From NCBI GenBank assembly GCA_030680795.1, contig JAUXUL010000038.1, positions 1 to 63,266 of the forward strand: a stretch of DNA of 63,266 bases, written 5' to 3'. The notes under the pieces are model-generated. The model had not been told where the DNA came from and made no database searches. It saw only the letters and a list, made by a program, of their open reading frames with translations. A program made the position numbers and the translations under genes. This DNA comes from Anaerolineales bacterium (GTDB taxonomy: Bacteria; Chloroflexota; Anaerolineae; Anaerolineales; Villigracilaceae). Below are positions 21,068 through 30,200 of this stretch, piece by piece (the first letter of the stretch is position 1; each line of letters starts with the position of its first letter).

Positions 21068-22195
21068 TCATTCCAACTCATTAATAAGTTCCGTCCAATT
21101 TTCAAAACAGTCTATGCCCGCTTGTGCAAATGCTTCCGCTTTGGCTTGGCTTCCACTGGTCATACCAAGGGCGCGTGTCTGCACATCCAATCCGAATCTT
21201 CTTAAGATTTCGCCAGCCTCAAGAGTTGACCGAATCCCGCCCAATGTATCTTCAACAACAATTAATTCAAATGCGTGCGGCAGGCCTGCCAAAACACCCT
21301 TGATCTGACTTGTCTGCAACCAGTCTCCCGCAGACTGCAAGCCGGTCCATTCATCGCCAGTGAACGCCGCGGCAATAGCCGCGAGCGCATGCACTGGTGA
21401 TGGTTTTAGCAAAGAACGCGCATCAAGTCCGCGTTGAGATGCAAGATATTCCAGTTTTCCAAAACCGATCAGGGGAATATCAGATAGCCCCACCATCTTG
21501 AGGGCAAGTTCTGCTTCGGGTGCATATCCAAAATGTGAATCGTTAACCTCTCGCGGCGGGGCGGATGGGCGCGCTGTCAAGGCTGCTAAACGAATATCTT
21601 CATGGCGCAGCCTGACGCGGACCTCTTCATTGATATTGGAACGATCATGTGTGAGTAAAAAGGATTCCGTTTCCACTTCTGCGGGCAGGCCGTATGTCTG
21701 GCTAAATGCACGGCTGCCCAGTGAGTAATGCTGGAATAACCGCATCGTATGAGAAAAATTGATATTACGCGACTGGCTTAAAAGGTTTGTGCGCAAATCA
21801 ATTGGAATAAAGGGAAAGCATCCATTTTTGAGGGCGGTTTCTGCGGGATATTGACCTGAAATCATTTCAAACTCAGGAACAACCAGCTCGCGGAGGCAAC
21901 ATCCATTTACGTTGCGCCCAATCTCCACCGCCGCAGAAGTCAGGTCAGGCGGCAGGGCTAAATTTGGGTAATGGGACAGAATATCGTTCCATAATGCGCC
22001 AAGCAAAAGCGGAATCATGTCCCACTCGCTAAATATTCCGCGCTTTTCCAATTCAGCCAGTTTTTCTTCTGGAAAATCAAAATGTGACAATCCCATCAGG
22101 CTGACAAAATGATTTAATGTGGTATGCAAAGCGGCACGATATCCGCCATGATCAACAAGGACGCCGTCAATATCAAGCAGGATGACTTTTTTCAT
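21068..22195 (-). CDS. HAD-superfamily hydrolase, candidate histidinol-phosphatase
   Basis: 375 residues. HAD motifs: DIDGVLVD at residues 8-15 (nucleophile Asp plus Asp), LTARPS as motif II near 200, a lysine in LLKPSP as motif III and VVEDTLGGIRS as motif IV. A large cap of about 180 residues separates motifs I and II. The start overlaps the hisE stop by four bases (ATGA), so it is coupled to the his operon. The operon has no hisN and its HisB is the dehydratase alone, so this could supply the missing histidinol-phosphate phosphatase. That role is inference; the cap does not resemble known HolPases that I recognise. Confidence 0.75.
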   Translation of the reverse strand: MKKVILLDIDGVLVDHGGYRAALHTTLNHFVSLMGLSHFDFPEEKLAELEKRGIFSEWDMIPLLLGALWNDILSHYPNLALPPDLTSAAVEIGRNVNGCCLRELVVPEFEMISGQYPAETALKNGCFPFIPIDLRTNLLSQSRNINFSHTMRLFQHYSLGSRAFSQTYGLPAEVETESFLLTHDRSNINEEVRVRLRHEDIRLAALTARPSAPPREVNDSHFGYAPEAELALKMVGLSDIPLIGFGKLEYLASQRGLDARSLLKPSPVHALAAIAAAFTGDEWTGLQSAGDWLQTSQIKGVLAGLPHAFELIVVEDTLGGIRSTLEAGEILRRFGLDVQTRALGMTSGSQAKAEAFAQAGIDCFENWTELINELE

Positions 22196-22467
22196 TTGTA
22201 CCGCTTCTCCAATTCAGCCAGTACATCCGCCGGGGTTAATCCGCGCGCAGCCAGTAGAACGAGGGTGTGATACGTAAGGTCTGCAACTTCTTCGATCAGG
22301 CGCTGGTCTTCCTGCGCAAGTGTTGCCACGACAACTTCTGTGCCTTCCTCGCCGACTTTCTGCGCGATTCTCGGCAAACCCTCTGCAAACAGGCTTGCTG
22401 TATAGGATTTTTCGGATGGATTATTCTTGCGGTCTTCAATTACGTCAAACAGCCATTGAATACTCAT
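22192..22467 (-). CDS. hisE: phosphoribosyl-ATP pyrophosphatase
   Basis: 91 residues from the ATG giving MSIQWLFDVIEDRKNN, preceded by GGAGAATAACAAC. It hydrolyses PR-ATP to PR-AMP. The MazG-like helical motif KVGEEGTEVVVA..EE.ADLTYH is complete. In many bacteria it is fused to HisI; here hisI is a separate gene upstream, with a repeat-filled spacer between them. Further upstream in-frame codons are repeat-derived and not part of the protein. Confidence 0.93.
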   Translation of the reverse strand: MSIQWLFDVIEDRKNNPSEKSYTASLFAEGLPRIAQKVGEEGTEVVVATLAQEDQRLIEEVADLTYHTLVLLAARGLTPADVLAELEKRYK

Positions 22468-22489
22468 GTTGTTATTCTCCAAAAAATTA

Positions 22490-22570
22490 TTAAACACAAA
22501 GTGCACAAAGGTCACGAAGGAAAACCTGTGAAGGTAAAATGTTTTTCCCATTGTGCGCTTCGTAACCTTC
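22490..22570. repeat. inverted repeat AAACACAAAG family between hisI and hisE
   Basis: Starts TTAAACACAAAGTGCACAAAGG and ends GTAACCTTCGTGTTTAA. It is a relative of 16740-16828 and fills the gap between hisI and hisE. Confidence 0.7.
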
Positions 22571-22574
22571 GTGT

Positions 22575-22895
22575 TTAAAAAGCGCGATAAAAACAAGTTT
22601 GGTTTCCTGTGTGACAGGCGGGACCTGCTGGGTGAACGCGAATTAGTAAAGTATCAGCGTCACAGTCCACGCGGACATCAACTACGCGTTGCGCATTACC
22701 TGATGTCGCGCCTTTGTGCCACAACTCGCCGCGACTGCGCGACCAGAAATGAGTCTCGCCTTTTTCTAATGTGAGCCGCAGGGCTTCTTTATTCACATAC
22801 GCCAGCATCAACACTTCATTTGTGTCCGCGTCTTGAATGATTGCGGGGATGAGGCCATTGTTGTCGAATTTAATTTCAGGTAAAGATACTTGCAT
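22575..22895 (-). CDS. hisI: phosphoribosyl-AMP cyclohydrolase
   Basis: 106 residues. It opens the purine ring of PR-AMP. The family motifs [19 protein letters not shown], the metal-binding VDCDADTLL and [11 protein letters not shown] (His and Cys ligands) are intact. The stand-alone length fits the cyclohydrolase domain. It lies between hisF and hisE. Confidence 0.95.
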
Positions 22896-22912
22896 TAATT
22901 ACTCCTTGAACG

Positions 22913-23683
22913 TTAAACGTTCAACGTTTCCATTCTCACAGGCACGCCCCAACCCTGCAATTCCTTTTTTAGTTCGGCGATTCTCAACTTCCCATCATGG
23001 AACAGCGACGCGGCAAGCGCTGCATCTGCTTTGCCTTCGGTCAACACATTCGCAAAATGGGACGGCGTCCCTGCGCCGCCTGAAGCGATAACAGGCACAG
23101 ACACAGCCTCCGCAATCGCGCGAGTCAATTCGATATTGTAGCCCGCGAGCGTGCCGTCCGCGTCCATGCTGGTTAATAAAATTTCACCCGCGCCCAATTT
23201 CACACCGCGCACTGCCCACTCGATTGCATCCAATCCCGTTGGAACACGCCCGCCGTTGACATAGACTTCCCAACCCGAATCGCACCGACGCACATCAATT
23301 GCCAGCACGATACATTGCGCGCCAAAACGCGACGCGCCTTCGGATAAAAGTTTCGGGTCCTTGACCGCTGCTGAATTGATACTGATTTTATCCGCGCCAG
23401 CCAAAAGCAGGTCACGCATATCGTCCACTGTGCGAATGCCACCGCCCACCGTGAGCGGCATAAAGACCGTATCTGCCACGCGCCCGACGAGTTCGCGCGT
23501 GGTCTGGCGTCCTTCGTGCGTCGCGGAAATATCTAAAAAGACAAGCTCGTCCGCGCCCTGCTCATCGTAGAGGTGCGCCTGTTCAACAGGGTCACCCGCA
23601 TCACGCAGGTTGACAAAGTTCACGCCTTTGACCACGCGCCCGTCTTTGATATCAAGGCAGGGGATGATTCGTTTTGCTAAAAT
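22913..23683 (-). CDS. hisF: imidazole glycerol phosphate synthase cyclase subunit
   Basis: 256 residues if read from ATT at 23683. The first conserved residues ([19 protein letters not shown]) contain catalytic Asp11 in CLD and are encoded, but no ATG, GTG or TTG lies before them in frame. The codon at the normal start position is ATT, preceded five bases earlier by GGAG. The first GTG would remove 18 residues and the catalytic Asp. The second catalytic Asp is in [10 protein letters not shown]. HisF and HisH together make imidazole glycerol phosphate and AICAR. AUU initiation is the simplest reading; a point error at the start codon is the alternative. Confidence 0.9.
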
Positions 23684-23709
23684 AATTTCTCCAATTCGAC
23701 TGTCAAAAG

Positions 23710-24447
23710 TCAGGAGACTTTTGACTCCAGAGCGGACTTCAAATCAATCGTCCCCTCATACAAAGCGCGGCCAATGATCGCACCTGAAAGATTCGCGTCA
23801 CGCGCTGCGATCACATCGTCCAATGTATGCACGCCGCCCGAAGCGATCACATCCAACCTGCTGACATTAGCCAGCGCGCGCGTCGCGGAGATGTTCAAGC
23901 CATGCCCCATTCCGTCGCGGCTGACATCGGTAAAGATGATGGTACGTAGCCCCACAGCTCGCATTTGAAGCGCGAGGTCTTGAGCGGATATTCCGCCATC
24001 CGATTGCCAGCCGCGCACGCGTACGACTCCATCGCGCGCGTCAATGCCCGCGGCGATTTTTTCCGCGCCAAATTTTTTCAAAGCAATTGCGACCACAGCA
24101 GGCTGTTCCACTGCAATTGTGCCAAGCACGATACGACTCACACCAAGGCTTAAAACTTTTTCCGTTGCATCCAATGAACGCAAGCCGCCGCCAAACTGCA
24201 CACCGGCATTAAATTCATTTGCAATTTTTAAGATGGAAAGAAGCGCCTGTTGATTTGCCGTGTCGCCTTCGCCGAACGCGCCATCCAGGTTGACCACATG
24301 CAGCCACTTCGCGCCCATCTCCAGCCAACGCTTCGCCATCTCAGCGGGTTCATCGCTGTACGCGGTCATGCGCGCAGGATCGCCTTCCTTCAAGCGGACA
24401 GCTTTTCCGCCGCGCAAATCAATTGCGGGATAAATTGTAAAACTCAT
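23710..24447 (-). CDS. hisA: ProFAR isomerase
   Basis: 245 residues, (beta/alpha)8 barrel sharing ancestry with HisF. It starts [18 protein letters not shown], with catalytic Asp8 in AIDLRGG and the second Asp in [18 protein letters not shown] and ASGGV mark the two phosphate-binding sites. The start overlaps the hisH stop by four bases, so the pair is coupled. Confidence 0.96.
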
Positions 24448-25058
24448 GCCGCCTCCAAAAAATTTTTCAATATTCGCAATCCCACCGACTGGCTTTTCTC
24501 TGGATGAAATTGCACGCCGAAAATATTTTCATGCTGCACCGCACAGGCGTATTGCAAACCGTAGTCTGTTGTCGCAATTACATCGGATGAATTTCGCGGC
24601 TGGCAGTAATATGAGTGATTGAAATAAACATACGCCCCGTCATTGACCTGATTGAACAGCGGCGCGTCTTTCTTCGCCTCAATTTGATTCCATCCCGTGT
24701 GCGGGATCTTCACTGACAGCGACTCTGCAAAGCGTATCACTTTACCCGCAAGCAATCCCAAACCTTTATGCTCGCCCATCTCTTCACCGACGTCAAACAA
24801 GGCTTGCATACCTACGCAAATCCCAAGCAAAGGAAAACCGCGCGCTGTGATGTCTTTGACCGCAGACTCCAGGTTCCGCGCGCGCAGTCCCGACATAAAA
24901 TCACCGAATGCGCCAACACCGGGCAGCACAACACGCTCCCCCGATGAAATTTTGTGCGGGTCATCTGTGCGCAACACATTTGCGCCGATACTTTCCAGCG
25001 CTTTTTGCACAGAACGCAGATTGCCTGTGCCAGCGTCTACCAAAATCACTTCTTTCAT
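24444..25058 (-). CDS. hisH: imidazole glycerol phosphate synthase glutaminase subunit
   Basis: 204 residues. Class I glutaminase with the nucleophile Cys in LLGICVGMQALF, and the His and Glu of the triad in FGVQFHPEKSQ. LPGVGAFGDFM is the oxyanion region. It supplies ammonia to HisF. It follows hisB, with a small perfect palindrome (CGCGAAATTAATTTCGCG, 25075-25092) in the gap at the hisB stop. Confidence 0.96.
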   Translation of the reverse strand: MKEVILVDAGTGNLRSVQKALESIGANVLRTDDPHKISSGERVVLPGVGAFGDFMSGLRARNLESAVKDITARGFPLLGICVGMQALFDVGEEMGEHKGLGLLAGKVIRFAESLSVKIPHTGWNQIEAKKDAPLFNQVNDGAYVYFNHSYYCQPRNSSDVIATTDYGLQYACAVQHENIFGVQFHPEKSQSVGLRILKNFLEAA

Positions 25059-25092
25059 ATTTCACTTCCCGCAGCGCGAAATTAATTTCGCG

Positions 25093-25680
25093 TTACAGGA
25101 CTCCTTTCGTGGATGGGATCACACCCACACGGCGCGAATCAATTTGCGTAACCTGATCGAGCGAGCGCGCCCAGGCTTTGAAGAGCGCCTCGGCTTGATG
25201 ATGATCATCGCGCCCATATAAAATCCGCGCGTGCAAGTTGCAGCGCGCTGTCACTGCAAACGATTCGAAGAAATGCGGGAATAATGTAGCGGGAATATTA
25301 CCGACATAAGGCGTATGCCATTCCGCTTGAACCACCGCATAAGGACGTCCCGATAGATCAATTACGACATGTGCCAGCGTGTCATCCATCGGTACGAAGA
25401 AACTTCCCATGCGGACAATGCCCTTGCGGTCGCCAAGCGCTTGATCGAAAGCTTCACCCAACGCCAGCGCAACATCTTCAACGGTGTGATGAACGTCAAT
25501 GTGCAAATCCCCTTTTGCCTGTACGGTGAGGTCAAACAATCCATGCACAGCAAGATGTGTGAGCATGTGGTCGAAAAATCCAATGCCAGTGGAAATCTCG
25601 TGTTTGCCTGTTCCATCCAAATCAAGTTTAATTTCGATTTGTGTTTCGTTTGTTTGACGTGATATTTCAGCAGTTCGCAT
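25093..25680 (-). CDS. hisB: imidazoleglycerol-phosphate dehydratase
   Basis: 195 residues, the dehydratase only. Metal-binding motifs [31 protein letters not shown] and [21 protein letters not shown] are complete. The N-terminal histidinol-phosphatase domain found in enteric HisB is absent, so a separate phosphatase is needed. It starts two bases after the hisC stop. Confidence 0.96.
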
Positions 25681-25682
25681 GT

Positions 25683-26771
25683 TTACTCCTTCAACGCATT
25701 CAACAACGCATCTGTATCTTCAGGTCTGCCCACACTGATACGGATATGGTCGCGCAAGCCGGGCTTATTGAAATAGCGTACAAAAATTCCGTGCTGCTGC
25801 GCGAGATTCGCTTTGAGCACAGCGGCATCTTTTTCAATGACACGGCAAAGGATGAAATTTGAATATGTTGGATATGGCTGCAAATATGGGATATTTTGCA
25901 AACCTTCAAATAACCGCGTCCGTTCTCGCTTCAGAAGATCAACGACCTTTGCAAGTTGATCCACATGCGCGAGCGAAACCTGCGCTGCGACACTCGCCGC
26001 TACATTGACGTTGTATGGCTGCTTGGCTGCCCACAATATAGGCATTAACCATTTTGGAAACGCTCCATGCCCGATCCTCAAGCCAGCCAAGCCAGCCCAT
26101 TTGCTGAATGTTCGCAAGACGACAAGATTATCCCGCGAGGGAACTTCCCGTATCTGGCTTACACTTGCGCCGAGATTTTCACCTGCAAATTCGATATAGG
26201 CTTCATCCAACACGATCAAAGTGGGCAACTCCAGTAATGCATCAATGGTCTTTGCGTCAATCACTGAACCGTCTGGATTATTAGGCGATGTGATAAAGAA
26301 AAGTTTTGGGCGGTGAGTTTCCACTGCTTTGCGGATGGATTCCAAATCCAGCGAAAAATTCGCGCGGCGAGGAATTTCTACACAGCGCGCGGCATTGAGT
26401 TCCGCATCAAAGGAGTACATTCCAAATGTGGGCGGGCAGGAAAGAACGCAATCATCCGGTTCAAGAAAGACACGCATCAGCAGGTCAATCAACTCGTCTG
26501 CGCCAGCGCCAGCCATTAAATATTCAGCGGGGACGCCTGTGAATTCTTCAAGCGATTTTCGCAAAGCGCGGCTTTCCGGGTCGGGATAAATGTGGGGGAA
26601 TTCCATATTTCCCAATGCTTCGCGGACAACAGGCAGCAATCCATAAGGATTTTCGTTCGCATCCATTTTGACGATCTGCTCCGGGCTGCGTCCGAGTCGC
26701 GCGGATAGAACTTCAAACGGTTCAATGGGCGTGTACGGCGGTAGTGATTCCAAATGCTTGCGAATTTTCAT
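25683..26771 (-). CDS. hisC: histidinol-phosphate aminotransferase
   Basis: 362 residues, PLP-dependent class [16 protein letters not shown] is the N-terminal family motif, [13 protein letters not shown] the PLP phosphate region, [10 protein letters not shown] the Asn motif and [16 protein letters not shown] carries the PLP lysine. The start overlaps the hisD stop by four bases. Confidence 0.95.
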
Positions 26772-28141
26772 GCGGATTTCTCCAATCGCAGAAGCGCGGC
26801 GTTGGCGTGCGCGTCCAAGCCTTCGGATGTTGCAATTGTCGCCGCAGTTGAACCAATCGTCTGTACCGTGTTTTCATCGAGCGCAACCAGACTGATGATT
26901 TTTATAAAGTCCCATACATTAAGTGGAGAAGCAAAACGCGCAGAGCCGCCTGTCGGCATGACATGACTGGGACCCGCAAGATAATCGCCAAGCACCTCGA
27001 AGGAATGTTCGCCGAGGAATACGCCGCCCGCATTATTCACTTTTTCAACCCAGCGCCAGGGATCACTGACAGATAAAGCAAGGTGTTCGGGTGCATAATC
27101 GTTCGCCAACTGCACGGCTTCATCCAGGTCGCGAGTCAATACAGCGCCACCGCGATTCTCAAGCGAGGCGAGGATGATGTCCGCGCGGCTGCGTTGTTCG
27201 AATTGTCCTCCTACTTCAACTATTACCTTCTCGATCAATGTCTGTGATGGGGTTAATAAAATAGCAGAGGCTAATAGATCGTGTTCAGCCTGTGCGAGCA
27301 TGTCTGCCGCAACCCAGGCAGGATTTGCGGACTCATCTGCGATGACGACAGTTTCTGTGGGACCCGCCAACCCGTCAATGCCAACCACACCGTAGACCTG
27401 TCGTTTCGCGAGGGTGACGAATAAATTTCCGGGGCCGAAGATCTTATCCACTGGCTGAATCGTTTCCGTGCCGTAAGCCAGCGCCCCGATTGCCTGTGCC
27501 CCGCCGAGCAGATAAACTTTGTCCACGCCTGCAATCGCGCAGGCGGCTAATATCATCGGGTCAACAGGCGGCATTGTATGCTCTCTCGACGTCCCCGCCG
27601 CCGAGGATGGCGGCTTGAGCGATGGCGGCGTGACAACGATGATCTCTTTCACGCCCGCCACGCGCGCAGGAATGGCGCTCATCAAAACTGTGGATGGCAG
27701 CGGCGCGGTCCCGCCGGGGACATATAACCCCACGCGTTGAATGGGGCGAATGATCTGTCCAAGCGTGCCGCCGAGTTCATTGGTGAACCACGACGTCAAC
27801 GGCTGGCGGCGATGAAACCCTTCAATGCGCACGGCGGATTTTTCCAGCGCGATTCTTTTCTCCGGCGCGAGTGAATCCAGCGCGGATTGAATCGCATCTT
27901 GTGAAATCGGTGTGGGTGGAAGATTCATCCCGTCGAGCATTTGAGTCCATTTTTGAAGGGCTGTGTCTCCATTGGCGCGTACATCTTTCAAAATTTTCGT
28001 CACTGCCTGCTCGACGGTTAGCGGCTCGCCAAAAAGTTTTGCGATCCCATCCAACACGCGCTGGCTGACGGGGAATTCATCGGGCGGCGTGCGCTGGAGG
28101 ATGGTTTGTTTTGCAGTTTGAGGGTCGTATTGTTTGAGCAT
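26768..28141 (-). CDS. hisD: histidinol dehydrogenase
   Basis: 457 residues from the ATG giving MLKQYDPQT, preceded by GGAGTCC. It oxidises histidinol twice to histidine. Zinc ligands and catalytic residues are in LLAQAEHDLLAS, YAPEHLAL and PSHVMPTGGSARFASPL. After VVTPP there is an insertion of about 20 residues (SLKPPSSAAGTSREHTMPP) where other HisD proteins have a short turn before DP.ILAAC. The DNA there contains a GCCGCCATC/GGCGGCGGGG inverted stretch, suggesting another repeat insertion. It lies second in the his operon. Confidence 0.94.
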   Translation of the reverse strand: MLKQYDPQTAKQTILQRTPPDEFPVSQRVLDGIAKLFGEPLTVEQAVTKILKDVRANGDTALQKWTQMLDGMNLPPTPISQDAIQSALDSLAPEKRIALEKSAVRIEGFHRRQPLTSWFTNELGGTLGQIIRPIQRVGLYVPGGTAPLPSTVLMSAIPARVAGVKEIIVVTPPSLKPPSSAAGTSREHTMPPVDPMILAACAIAGVDKVYLLGGAQAIGALAYGTETIQPVDKIFGPGNLFVTLAKRQVYGVVGIDGLAGPTETVVIADESANPAWVAADMLAQAEHDLLASAILLTPSQTLIEKVIVEVGGQFEQRSRADIILASLENRGGAVLTRDLDEAVQLANDYAPEHLALSVSDPWRWVEKVNNAGGVFLGEHSFEVLGDYLAGPSHVMPTGGSARFASPLNVWDFIKIISLVALDENTVQTIGSTAATIATSEGLDAHANAALLRLEKSA

Positions 28142-28151
28142 GATGGACTCC

Positions 28152-29150
28152 TTATTCGAGGGCTTTGAGCATGGCGCTGTAACGCGGCGGCTCTTCTTCA
28201 AAAATATAAGTGATGGGCGAAACGATAATGCCGCTGCCGCCAATGAGACGAAGTTCGGAGACGGCTTGGGGTAAATGATCGCGCCGCACTACGACTGTGA
28301 CTGAGTACCAGTTCGGCATTCCATGGCGCACACCGATCGGGCTGATGGTCGGTCCCTGTAAGCCGCCCACATTAGTTTGCGTAAATATTTTTTCAGCGAT
28401 CATTTCCGCGTTATCGCCGCGCATATTTGCGATAACCAAAACATTTTCCTTGGCGCGCATGTGCGCTTCGAGGTATTCGAGCAGGCGGCGCGCCATCTCA
28501 AGGACTTCGGGGCGGGTTTTCAAGGCGTTACGATTTGCGATCAACACCGCCTGCGATGGTTGAATGACCCCGTCGGTCAGCGGGCGCAGACGGTTATCCA
28601 ATAGAGTTTGTCCCGATGAAACCAGGTCAGAGATGATGTCGGCGTATCCAATGGTGGGCGCGGTTTCGAGCGTGCCTTCAGCGGCGATGAGCGTGTGCGC
28701 GATGTTGTTCTTATCGAGAAAACGTTTTGTCAGAACCGGGAATTTTGTCGCCACGCGCAGCGGGCTTGTTAATGCAGCCGCGTATGCTTTGAGCGACTCA
28801 ATGTCTGTCACTGTTTTCCAAATTTCCGGCACAGCCAATGTCAGAGCGCAACTTCCAAAGCCGAGCGAATCGTGTAAGATGAGAATATCACCGTTGCCAC
28901 CGCGTTTTTCCTCGATCATATCGAGTCCGGTAATGCCAAAGTCAATGCTGCCCTGGCGCACGCTGACAACAATGTCGCCGGGACGTTGAAAGATGACGCC
29001 CATTTCAGGCAGGGCGGGTAACTCAGCTTGATACTGGCGCGGGTTTGATTTGATAACACGAAGCCCGGCGGCGGAGAGAAAATCCAGCGCGCCACTTTCG
29101 AGGCGGCCCTTGGATGGGAGGGAAAGACGGATGGATCGTTGCGGGAGCAT
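28152..29150 (-). CDS. hisG: ATP phosphoribosyltransferase, long form
   Basis: 332 residues. First step of histidine synthesis. The N-terminal type II periplasmic-binding fold has LSLPSKGRLESGALDFL, the central DIVSDLVSSGQTLLDNRLRPL motif carries the PRPP region, and the C-terminal part (GPTISPI...YSVTVVVRR...GGSGIIVSPITYIFE) is the regulatory ACT-like domain of the long form. It therefore does not need HisZ and should be inhibited by histidine. It is the first structural gene after the histidine attenuator. Confidence 0.95.
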   Translation of the reverse strand: MLPQRSIRLSLPSKGRLESGALDFLSAAGLRVIKSNPRQYQAELPALPEMGVIFQRPGDIVVSVRQGSIDFGITGLDMIEEKRGGNGDILILHDSLGFGSCALTLAVPEIWKTVTDIESLKAYAAALTSPLRVATKFPVLTKRFLDKNNIAHTLIAAEGTLETAPTIGYADIISDLVSSGQTLLDNRLRPLTDGVIQPSQAVLIANRNALKTRPEVLEMARRLLEYLEAHMRAKENVLVIANMRGDNAEMIAEKIFTQTNVGGLQGPTISPIGVRHGMPNWYSVTVVVRRDHLPQAVSELRLIGGSGIIVSPITYIFEEEPPRYSAMLKALE

Positions 29151-29169
29151 GTAGTTTTCCTTTGTGTGA

Positions 29170-29204
29170 AATTAAACGAAAAACCCCGATCAAAGACCGG
29201 GGTT
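29170..29204 (-). terminator. attenuator terminator of the his operon
   Basis: On the minus strand AACCCCGGTC - TTT - GATCGGGGTT forms a 10-bp stem (one G-U pair) followed by TTTCG. Its 5' arm CCCGGTCTTTG is exactly complementary over 11 bases to CAAAGACCGGG in the leader-peptide region (29270-29260). The two pairings exclude each other. Confidence 0.9.
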
Positions 29205-29238
29205 GATGTGACAAAGAACGCTATCCTGTTAATTTAAT

Positions 29239-29319
29239 TCAGGTACGCGCGCAGAATCTCCCGGTCTTTGGGGGCATGTGATGATGAACATGGTGATTGT
29301 GCGCGAACATTGAATTCAT
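29239..29319 (-). CDS. histidine leader peptide (attenuator) for his operon
   Basis: A 26-residue frame starts 10 bases after the -10 box. It reads MNSMFA, then HNHHVHHH (six His in eight residues), then MPPKTGRFCART and TGA. The His run lies directly before the segment that can break the terminator. This is the layout of enteric his attenuators, with a different peptide. No ribosome binding site precedes the first ATG, and the inferred transcript start is only about 3-5 bases before it, so initiation is probably leaderless. A second ATG at codon 4 is possible. Confidence 0.88.
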   Translation of the reverse strand: MNSMFAHNHHVHHHMPPKTGRFCART

Positions 29320-29329
29320 GATGGGCGGT

Positions 29330-29357
29330 ATTCTACTCGAAAAGTGGAATGTGTCAA
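29330..29357 (-). promoter_or_regulatory. promoter of the his operon
   Basis: On the minus strand TTGACA (29357-29352), 16 bases, TAGAAT (29335-29330), then ACCGCCCATC and the leader ATG. It matches the arg promoter in both boxes, the spacer end (TTTTCGAG) and the stretch to the ATG (ACCGCCCA). Confidence 0.87.
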
Positions 29358-29387: not shown

Positions 29388-30200
29388 TCAACCTTTGAAA
29401 CGCGGATACGATCCGAGCACACGCAGCATCAGCGCATATTCTCCCAAGTGATCCAGCGCGCGTTTTGTAGTCTCTTCATATGTCGCACCGATGAAATCAA
29501 TATAAAACAAATATTCCCACGGCTTGCCCTGCAATGGACGCGATTCGATCTTGGTCAGGTCAATATCGCGCAAGGCGAAAACACTCAGGGCTTTGAACAA
29601 CGCTCCTGGCACATTTTTCAAAGTGAATACGATGGATGTTTTTGCCTCGCCTTCGGGCATTTTTGTTTCATGCTGAATGGCAAGAAACCGCGTATAGTTT
29701 TCAGGATTATCTTCAATCCCCTCTTCCAAAATTTCCATTCCATACAATTCCGCCGCGCGGCGTGACGCGATCGCTGCCACATCACGCGCACCAGACTCTT
29801 TGAGTATCTTCACACTTCCAGCTGTATCATAGACCTGCTCGGCTTTGATTCCATGAGTCCGTAAATAGTCTGCGCACTGTCCCAATGCCTGCGGATGGCT
29901 GATCGCTTTTGTAATTTCTTTTTTCTGCACGCCAGGTATGGCGATCAAACAATGCCGCACGCGCAGGAGATACTCACCCACAATATACAAATTGTGACGT
30001 AATAGCAAATCATAATTCTGGTGAATGCTCCCCGCCAATGAATTCTCAATTGGGATTAACGCCAATTCACATTTCTTTGAAACGACAGCATCGAATACCG
30101 CGTCAAAGGACTCACACGGAAGGGTTTCGACGCTTCCGAAATACCCGAAAACTGCCAGCTCGGAATAAGCACCTGCCTCGCCTTGAAATGCAACTTTCAT
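29388..30200 (-). CDS. pheA: prephenate dehydratase
   Basis: 270 residues. It converts prephenate to phenylpyruvate. The catalytic domain has FQGEAGAYSELAV, PIENSLAGSIHQNYDLL and the Thr of NYTRFLAI (TRF motif). A C-terminal ACT domain contains GALFKALSVF and the Phe-binding KIESRPLQG, so feedback inhibition by phenylalanine is expected. GGAGGCAAA precedes the ATG. It ends just before the his promoter, with no clear terminator between. Confidence 0.95.
   Translation of the reverse strand: MKVAFQGEAGAYSELAVFGYFGSVETLPCESFDAVFDAVVSKKCELALIPIENSLAGSIHQNYDLLLRHNLYIVGEYLLRVRHCLIAIPGVQKKEITKAISHPQALGQCADYLRTHGIKAEQVYDTAGSVKILKESGARDVAAIASRRAAELYGMEILEEGIEDNPENYTRFLAIQHETKMPEGEAKTSIVFTLKNVPGALFKALSVFALRDIDLTKIESRPLQGKPWEYLFYIDFIGATYEETTKRALDHLGEYALMLRVLGSYPRFKG

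Follow-up and report, generated by a model that had tools for sequence, protein, structure and literature searches.

In enteric bacteria the his operon is preceded by hisL (Rfam family RF00514), which encodes a leader peptide with a run of histidines, has a normal leader and Shine-Dalgarno (SD) sequence, and is accompanied by protector, antiterminator and terminator helices. In Firmicutes, predicted His-run peptides with a terminator and antiterminator are described before his operons (17 species, PMC9413887) and before hisS (PMC2965389), and the available portions of these papers do not mention leaderless geometry. According to the part of PMC2965389 available, the only leader-peptide systems known in 2010 outside Proteobacteria and Actinobacteria were ermC and the hisS case of that paper itself. 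Actinobacteria carry leaderless leader peptides before amino-acid genes, several of them with a terminator: LeuL, TrpL and IlvL have been mapped in Streptomyces lividans (PMC8079986), and an ilvB leader in Corynebacterium diphtheriae (PMC5784534). As far as the accessible text of these sources goes, they sense Leu, Trp or Ile/Val rather than His, and the available part of PMC1262725 reports that no conserved RNA structure was seen upstream of actinobacterial histidine operons. For Chloroflexota, no report of any attenuator, and none from any phylum of his attenuation with a leaderless leader, was found in the open-access literature; in the accessible text of PMC9413887 the word "Chloroflexi" occurs only in a reference, and PMC4833913 names Chloroflexi as a phylum with too few genomes.

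The locus described here comes from a member of the Anaerolineales and lies in a stretch of 63,266 nt (the window, meaning the whole stretch that was analysed), which is contig 9 of a 3.45 Mb genome in 54 contigs. It resembles the enteric system in its His-run leader peptide, its antiterminator and terminator helices, a probable protector helix, its place before the his operon and its proposed control logic, which is the same. It differs in that the leader start lies about 10 nt past the -10 box, in lacking an SD, and in having no match to RF00514, either in the window at the gathering score or in the leader region up to E 10. By function it is very probably a his attenuator, outside Rfam RF00514. 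It would join features that have been found separately, his attenuation in Proteobacteria and Firmicutes and leaderless leader peptides in Actinobacteria; if the interpretation is right, Chloroflexota would be added to the phyla with leader-peptide attenuation of amino-acid operons. An earlier, sequence-only reading of this DNA had set the nearly leaderless start apart from enteric leaders and knew of no parallel in Chloroflexota; the idea that a leaderless leader peptide is unprecedented is withdrawn in view of the examples mapped in Streptomyces and Corynebacterium.

Organization of the his leader

The his operon of the window, which is complete, is very probably governed by a ribosome-mediated transcription attenuator whose leader peptide is read from an mRNA that is leaderless or has a 5' leader of about 4 nt. 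The parts of this attenuator are listed in Table 1.

Table 1. Features of the his leader and operon in the 63,266-nt window
Feature	Position	Strand	Basis or remark
-35 hexamer TTGACA	29352..29357	-	sequence read and promoter scan
-10 hexamer TAGAAT	29330..29335	-	sequence read and promoter scan
Leader-peptide ORF, probably leaderless	29239..29319	-	reads MNSMFAHNHHVHHHMPPKTGRFCART and a stop codon; 26 aa
Regulatory His codons H7, H9, H10, H12, H13, H14	29278..29301	-	sequence read
Segment 1, 5' half of protector hairpin	29295..29304	-	constrained fold; duplex z -3.3 in this genome
Segment 2, 5' half of antiterminator	29249..29270	-	exact 11-nt core 29270-29260
Segment 3, terminator 5' arm and loop	29191..29204	-	29201-29191 pairs with 29270-29260
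Segment 4, terminator 3' arm	29182..29191	-	sequence pattern and covariation
T-rich terminator tail TTTCGTTT	29174..29181	-	sequence pattern
SD-like AAAGGA of hisG (unlike the leader)	29158..29163	-	sequence read
hisG, first structural gene	28152..29150	-	NCBIfam TIGR00070 and TIGR03455 over cut-off
hisD, hisC, hisB, hisH, hisA, hisF, hisI, hisE	22192..28243	-	NCBIfam matches over cut-off; listed starts of hisD, hisF and hisE are mechanical calls and may be off

The promoter has a 16-nt spacer and agrees with the consensus at 11 of 12 positions, and the leader ATG begins at 29319, 10 nt 3' of the -10 box. The ORF contains the stretch HNHHVHHH, six histidines in eight residues. Between the ORF and hisG lies a predicted terminator, AACCCCGGTC-TTT-GATCGGGGTT (29204-29182), recognized from its sequence pattern: a 10-bp stem, followed by the T-rich tail. 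A His-codon leader ORF and a terminator pattern before hisG, two features of this class of attenuator, are both present. Inside the ORF, CAAAGACCGGG (29270-29260) matches the reverse complement of CCCGGTCTTTG (29201-29191) at every base, and the duplex of this segment with the arm is computed at -18.5 kcal/mol, whereas shuffles average -10.2 (z -3.7, with 0 of 100 shuffles as good). The promoter with its 26-residue, His-rich frame (29357-29239), the terminator with its T-run ahead of hisG (29204-29174, hisG starting at 29150), and the ATG 10 bases past the -10 box with no ribosome binding site had all been recognized in the sequence-only reading and are borne out, the last being also kept among relatives. 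The same reading had placed the 11-base complement in the 5' arm of the terminator; the complementarity is exact, but only 7 nt of it fall in that arm, the rest belonging to the loop and, with a single base, to the beginning of the 3' arm.

Single elements of this kind are not all rare. In the region from 29.7 to 28.8 kb there is one promoter-like site where 1.1 would be expected, and there are three terminator-like sites where 1.0 would be; since the promoter alone is not above chance, the weight rests on the arrangement of the parts. When the two strands of the window were scanned from end to end for a short ORF that directly follows a promoter-like site and contains a residue run, 14 candidates were obtained, among which the his leader ranks top, with a promoter score of 11 (the next has 9) and the densest run (6/8). 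None of the other 13 is of comparable quality.

It is very improbable that histidine synthesis is controlled here by a T-box or a repressor and that the His ORF is a relic. In Firmicutes, his genes come under T-boxes or HisR, according to the portion of PMC9413887 available, and a T-box-like element does occur before trpE in a genome of the window's genus (see below). In the his leader region, however, the T-box family RF00230 has no match up to E 10, and in 21 genomes, the window's own among them, nothing exceeds the cut-off of PF01371 (the TrpR family, which includes HisR), the one weak match being in another genome (G438). Seven Rfam matches are listed for the region, all at chance level (best E 0.69; Trp_leader E 6.7), and no Rfam leader family stands above chance there.

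Conservation of the His leader

A search of 201 Anaerolineales genomes matched hisG in 92, and 89 upstream regions were examined after three genomes with partial or weak hisG matches (G007, G156, G180) were left out. An ORF with a His run (at least 3 His in six residues) lies upstream of hisG in 76 of these regions, spread over 14 families of the order, although the sequences are related and not independent, which means that such counts overstate the evidence. ATG is the chosen start in 73 of the 76 leaders, and 61 of the 76 use both CAT and CAC. When a -10 box is also required (TANNNT, at least 4/6, 5-12 nt before a possible start), the combination is found in 74 of the 89 regions, compared with 0 of 416 control stretches near trpE, leuA, ilvB and ilvD and 2 of 890 shuffles. 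Under a looser rule without the -10 box, a His-run ORF turns up in 32 of the 416 control stretches and 30 of the 890 shuffles. In the set of titled loci, several of whose genomes are shared with the 201-genome set, 34 of 45 have a His-run leader (L117 being doubtful). The close relatives among the titled records are Anaerolineales; one of the titled loci, L090, encodes a HisG 88% identical to that of the window. Another, from Ornatilinea apprima strain P3M-1, a named, non-MAG record, carries the His leader.

The peptide varies strongly between families outside the His run, and this argues against a reading in which the ORF encodes a working small peptide (for example a metal-binding one), the promoter and terminator beside it are ordinary, and the complementarity is incidental. 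His-rich peptides can bind metals and the ORF is conserved, as such an explanation would have it; yet a terminator and an antiterminator partner lie between the ORF and hisG, the His run sits where the computed switch requires it (see below), and the ORF with its -10 box is absent from the control stretches near other amino-acid genes. Taken with the variation of the peptide, these points leave that explanation scarcely credible, and an attenuator leader remains the preferred reading.

Thirteen of the 89 regions in the order lack the leader. In 10 of the 13 an open frame of 318 nt or longer ends no more than 40 nt from the hisG match, which suggests that hisG may lie inside another gene row there. 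The His leader is missing from eight genomes of a single family (f12: G096, G088, G052, G161, G126, G140, G119 and G112), seven of which have an open frame of 381 nt or longer that ends no more than 17 nt from the hisG match; with open frames abutting hisG in this way, his control may differ in that family.

In a search of the class, hisG was matched in 190 of 249 genomes. Forty upstream regions were taken from the better matches and 39 were examined, that of G245 being too short. An ATG-started His ORF with a -10 box (at least 4/6) is present in 13 of the 39, in six families of the class outside the order, and by eye 11 of these 13 also show a terminator. Among 30 loci from the phylum search (30 of 121 genomes matched, 29 of the loci outside the class), where hisG may not be the first gene, no His leader was accepted, and one His cluster occurs without a -10 box. 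As the leader is kept over many families, some ninety natural variants are available (76 in the order and 13 outside it) for a comparison of where the segments lie, how long the His run is and how the 5' end is arranged.

Pairing of the leader segments

A terminator hairpin was returned between the leader stop and hisG in all 76 leaders of the order; in two of them (G090 and G095) the finder placed it wrongly, the right terminator being visible there by eye. The duplex between segment 2 and arm 3 has a mean z of -2.25 against shuffles and falls below -1.64 in 53 of the 76 leaders, lying above that value in the other 23. The sequences of the two strands co-vary: the window group has GACCGGG with CCCGGTC, the sister species GGTCGGG with CCCGACC, and elsewhere CGGTCAGG pairs with CCTTGACC and TGATCGGC with GCCGATC.

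For the closest family an alignment of leaders was built, with L090-L116 as the only input from the titled loci; four identical rows were dropped, then four leaders of different structure (G095, G194, G079, G184), and 31 were left. Helix 2:3 is paired at 96.8% in this alignment, against 24-71% in slid registers and a mean of 90.4 (maximum 93.1) in shuffles, and two of its pairs show double changes (22 cells). Helix 3:4 is paired at 98.2%, against 30-66% in slid registers and at most 95.4 in shuffles, with double changes at three pairs, the changes in the two helices amounting to few independent events. Helix 2:3 has compensatory changes and is predicted to exclude the terminator, as an antiterminator does. 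When segments were swapped between families, the cognate segment had a median rank of 0.148, with 65 of 75 leaders below 0.5 and 19 of 75 below 0.05 (G090 was left out), a moderate effect.

A protector hairpin (1:2) would form between a 5' strand that precedes and overlaps the His codons and a 3' strand in the later part of the ORF, for which the 3' part of segment 2 does double duty. In the window a constrained fold pairs 29304-29300 with 29253-29249 and 29298-29295 with 29258-29255. The z value of the 1:2 duplex is below -1.64 in 42 of the 76 leaders, and the family mean is at or below -1.6 in 10 of the 14 families, f15, f10, f6 and f11 being those that do not support it. Covariation of this helix is weak in the closest family (73.5% paired, against a shuffle mean of 72.3 and a maximum of 74.6). 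With the protector hairpin added, most families would have the full 1:2 / 2:3 / 3:4 attenuator.

In six genomes of f15 (G075, G042, G083, G091, G066, G107) and two of f10 (G036, G049), a stretch near CGGACGCGGCGGGC (CGGATGCGGCGGGC in f10) lies 3' of the stop of a short His leader. It may pair with the terminator loop, and these families possibly have a different attenuator layout.

Ribosome position and the proposed switch

In the proposed mechanism, RNA polymerase would start a few nucleotides 5' of the leader ATG, and the 5' AUG would receive a ribosome with no need of an SD. Where charged His-tRNA is scarce, the ribosome would halt on the CAT/CAC run, with segment 1 melted and segment 2 untouched; the free segment 2 could then capture segment 3 as it emerges, no terminator would form, and the his operon would be transcribed. 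With histidine plentiful, the ribosome would either cover segment 2 or be released, the 1:2 hairpin re-forming; with segment 2 occupied, 3:4 pairing would follow and transcription would be expected to end before hisG.

An equilibrium fold of the full RNA favors the terminated form in 75 of 76 leaders, with or without a stalled ribosome. Since this form wins regardless, such a fold is no test of the switch, and RNA truncated before segment 4 was used instead. The ribosome footprint was masked, and the readout was the probability of pairing between arm 3 and segment 2, in 74 leaders (G090 and G095 were left out because of the finder's wrong hairpin). The probability of the antiterminator over these leaders is 0.71 with the ribosome at the first His codon, 0.43 with no ribosome and 0.27 once it has reached the stop codon. 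A stall gives a higher value than the stop position in 65 of the 74 leaders (four show the reverse) and a higher one than the ribosome-free state in 49 of the 74 (three show the reverse).

A scan of ribosome positions along the window leader gives 0.72 through the last His codon, 0.52 one codon later and 0.02-0.20 across segment 2, then a rise at the stop to a value between 0.54 and 0.85 that varies with the assumed footprint. For this leader the equilibrium model does not separate a stall at the first His codon (0.72) from the ribosome-free state (0.72) or from a ribosome at the stop (0.84), and so does not explain low expression in the latter two states; release, the protector hairpin and timing would have to account for termination. 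Over the 74 leaders the scan gives a clear switch in 59 and lacks one in 15. In 46 of the 59 (78%) the change point falls 0 to +5 codons past the last His, with a median of +3, while a control with uniform change points gives 29% (maximum 51%). With the change point just past the run, the His run tends in this computation to mark the last place at which a stalled ribosome leaves segment 2 free.

The sequence-only reading had proposed that ribosomes stalled at His codons free a segment that opens the terminator, and had pointed to an RNA fold of the leader and to conserved His codons and covarying stems in relatives as checks, with loss of the His run or of the alternative pairing in relatives counting against it. 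The His run is kept in most upstream regions of the order, the double changes in 2:3 and 3:4 supply the covarying stems, and the comparison did not refute the interpretation on either count; together with the conserved spacing, this supports it. The antiterminator and terminator of the earlier layout are kept; the protector hairpin was missing from it.

Promoter geometry and the probable leaderless start

Leaderless genes are marked by a TA-like signal some 10 bp upstream of the start codon, and they make up 4.0-5.7% of the genes in 4 of 12 Chloroflexi genomes, according to the part of PMC3160421 available. The his leader has this pattern, a -10 box about 10 nt before the start and no SD. In the order as a whole, the -10 box ends 6-11 nt before the chosen start in 73 of the 76 leaders, and exactly 10 nt before it in 27 of the 76. 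The spacing of promoter and start is kept in 72 of the 76, where 8.2 would be expected, and a -35 element (at least 4/6, at a spacing of 15-19 nt) is found in 60 of the 76, where 14.8 would be; the leader starts were chosen partly by the -10 box, a bias from which the comparison of 74 of 89 regions with 0 of 416 controls is free. None of the 76 leaders has an SD run longer than 3 nt before its start, whereas a run of at least 4 nt precedes hisG in 68 of 75 loci, the hisG starts having been chosen partly by SD.

In Streptomyces the distance from the end of the -10 box to the transcript start is 4-9 nt, as given in the accessible part of PMC8079986. When this distance is applied, the leader RNA of the window is predicted to start about 1-6 nt before the ATG, at about 29325-29321.

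It is unlikely that this is a true his attenuator with a transcript that begins further upstream, by read-through from pheA or from another promoter, and with some other route of initiation. The pheA gene (29388-30200, minus strand) is directly 5' of the his leader and ends at 29388, 31 nt before the -35 hexamer and on the same strand, which makes read-through possible; and the leader of ilvD in the same genus, with TATAAT about 19 nt before its ATG (by eye), indicates that strictly leaderless geometry is not universal. Against this, the -10 and -35 elements keep a near-fixed distance to the leader start across the order, no SD run of more than 3 nt is there to serve the leader ATG, and pheA stands beside hisG in only one of 75 loci, that of the window genome itself (nine of the 75 have less than 800 nt upstream). 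As the adjacency of pheA is not common to relatives, a local promoter is the better explanation, and promoter and leader appear to travel with hisG rather than with the preceding gene. The his terminator could also stop transcripts that read through from pheA.

If the leader is leaderless as preferred here, its start could be an old and functional part of the his attenuator and not a by-product, a suggestion to which we give slightly less than an even chance. It would mean, at the same tentative level, that a his leader transcript with a 5' AUG has been kept throughout the order and in several further families of the class, that the ribosome loads once the end of the RNA leaves RNA polymerase, and that loading on a bare 5' AUG sets the timing of ribosome and polymerase, as the SD and the pause do in enterics. 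Leaderless initiation in Chloroflexota would also become testable through an output relevant to growth. To judge from sequence, the strict leaderless geometry applies in this work to the his leader only.

Other amino-acid operons

By an automatic rule, Trp leaders were found in none of 13 loci before trpE in the relatives, and Ile/Leu/Val leaders directly before ilvB in one of 21, a weak candidate with a GTG start in G009. In the loci inspected, ilvD precedes ilvB, and the automatic rule missed a leader that was found by eye before ilvD. This second, putative leader peptide, in which Ile, Val and Leu abound, precedes the ilv-leu operon in 13 of 16 regions from the window's genus (L258, on contig C35 of G000, and L255-L257, L259-L262 and L264-L268). 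Its layout in G000 is TATAAT, about 19 nt, ATG and the peptide MNPTLFSLSLIVVVLAVLIIKDQFSVRMATVRVK, followed by a terminator, GCCGCCCTAACC...GGGCGGC. By eye, pairing of the 5' arm of this terminator with (A/G)GTTAGGATGGC inside the ORF is possible. The ilvD leader has no obvious SD, yet is not strictly leaderless.

The T-box-like element before trpE of G189 (L176, 3049-3377) matches RF00230 with 82 bits (E 3.8e-18), below the cut-off of 93 bits, and stretches like GGGTGGCACCACG occur before trpE in other relatives. Together, the ilvD leader and the T-box-like element suggest that attenuation based on stalling may be a general tool in these bacteria.
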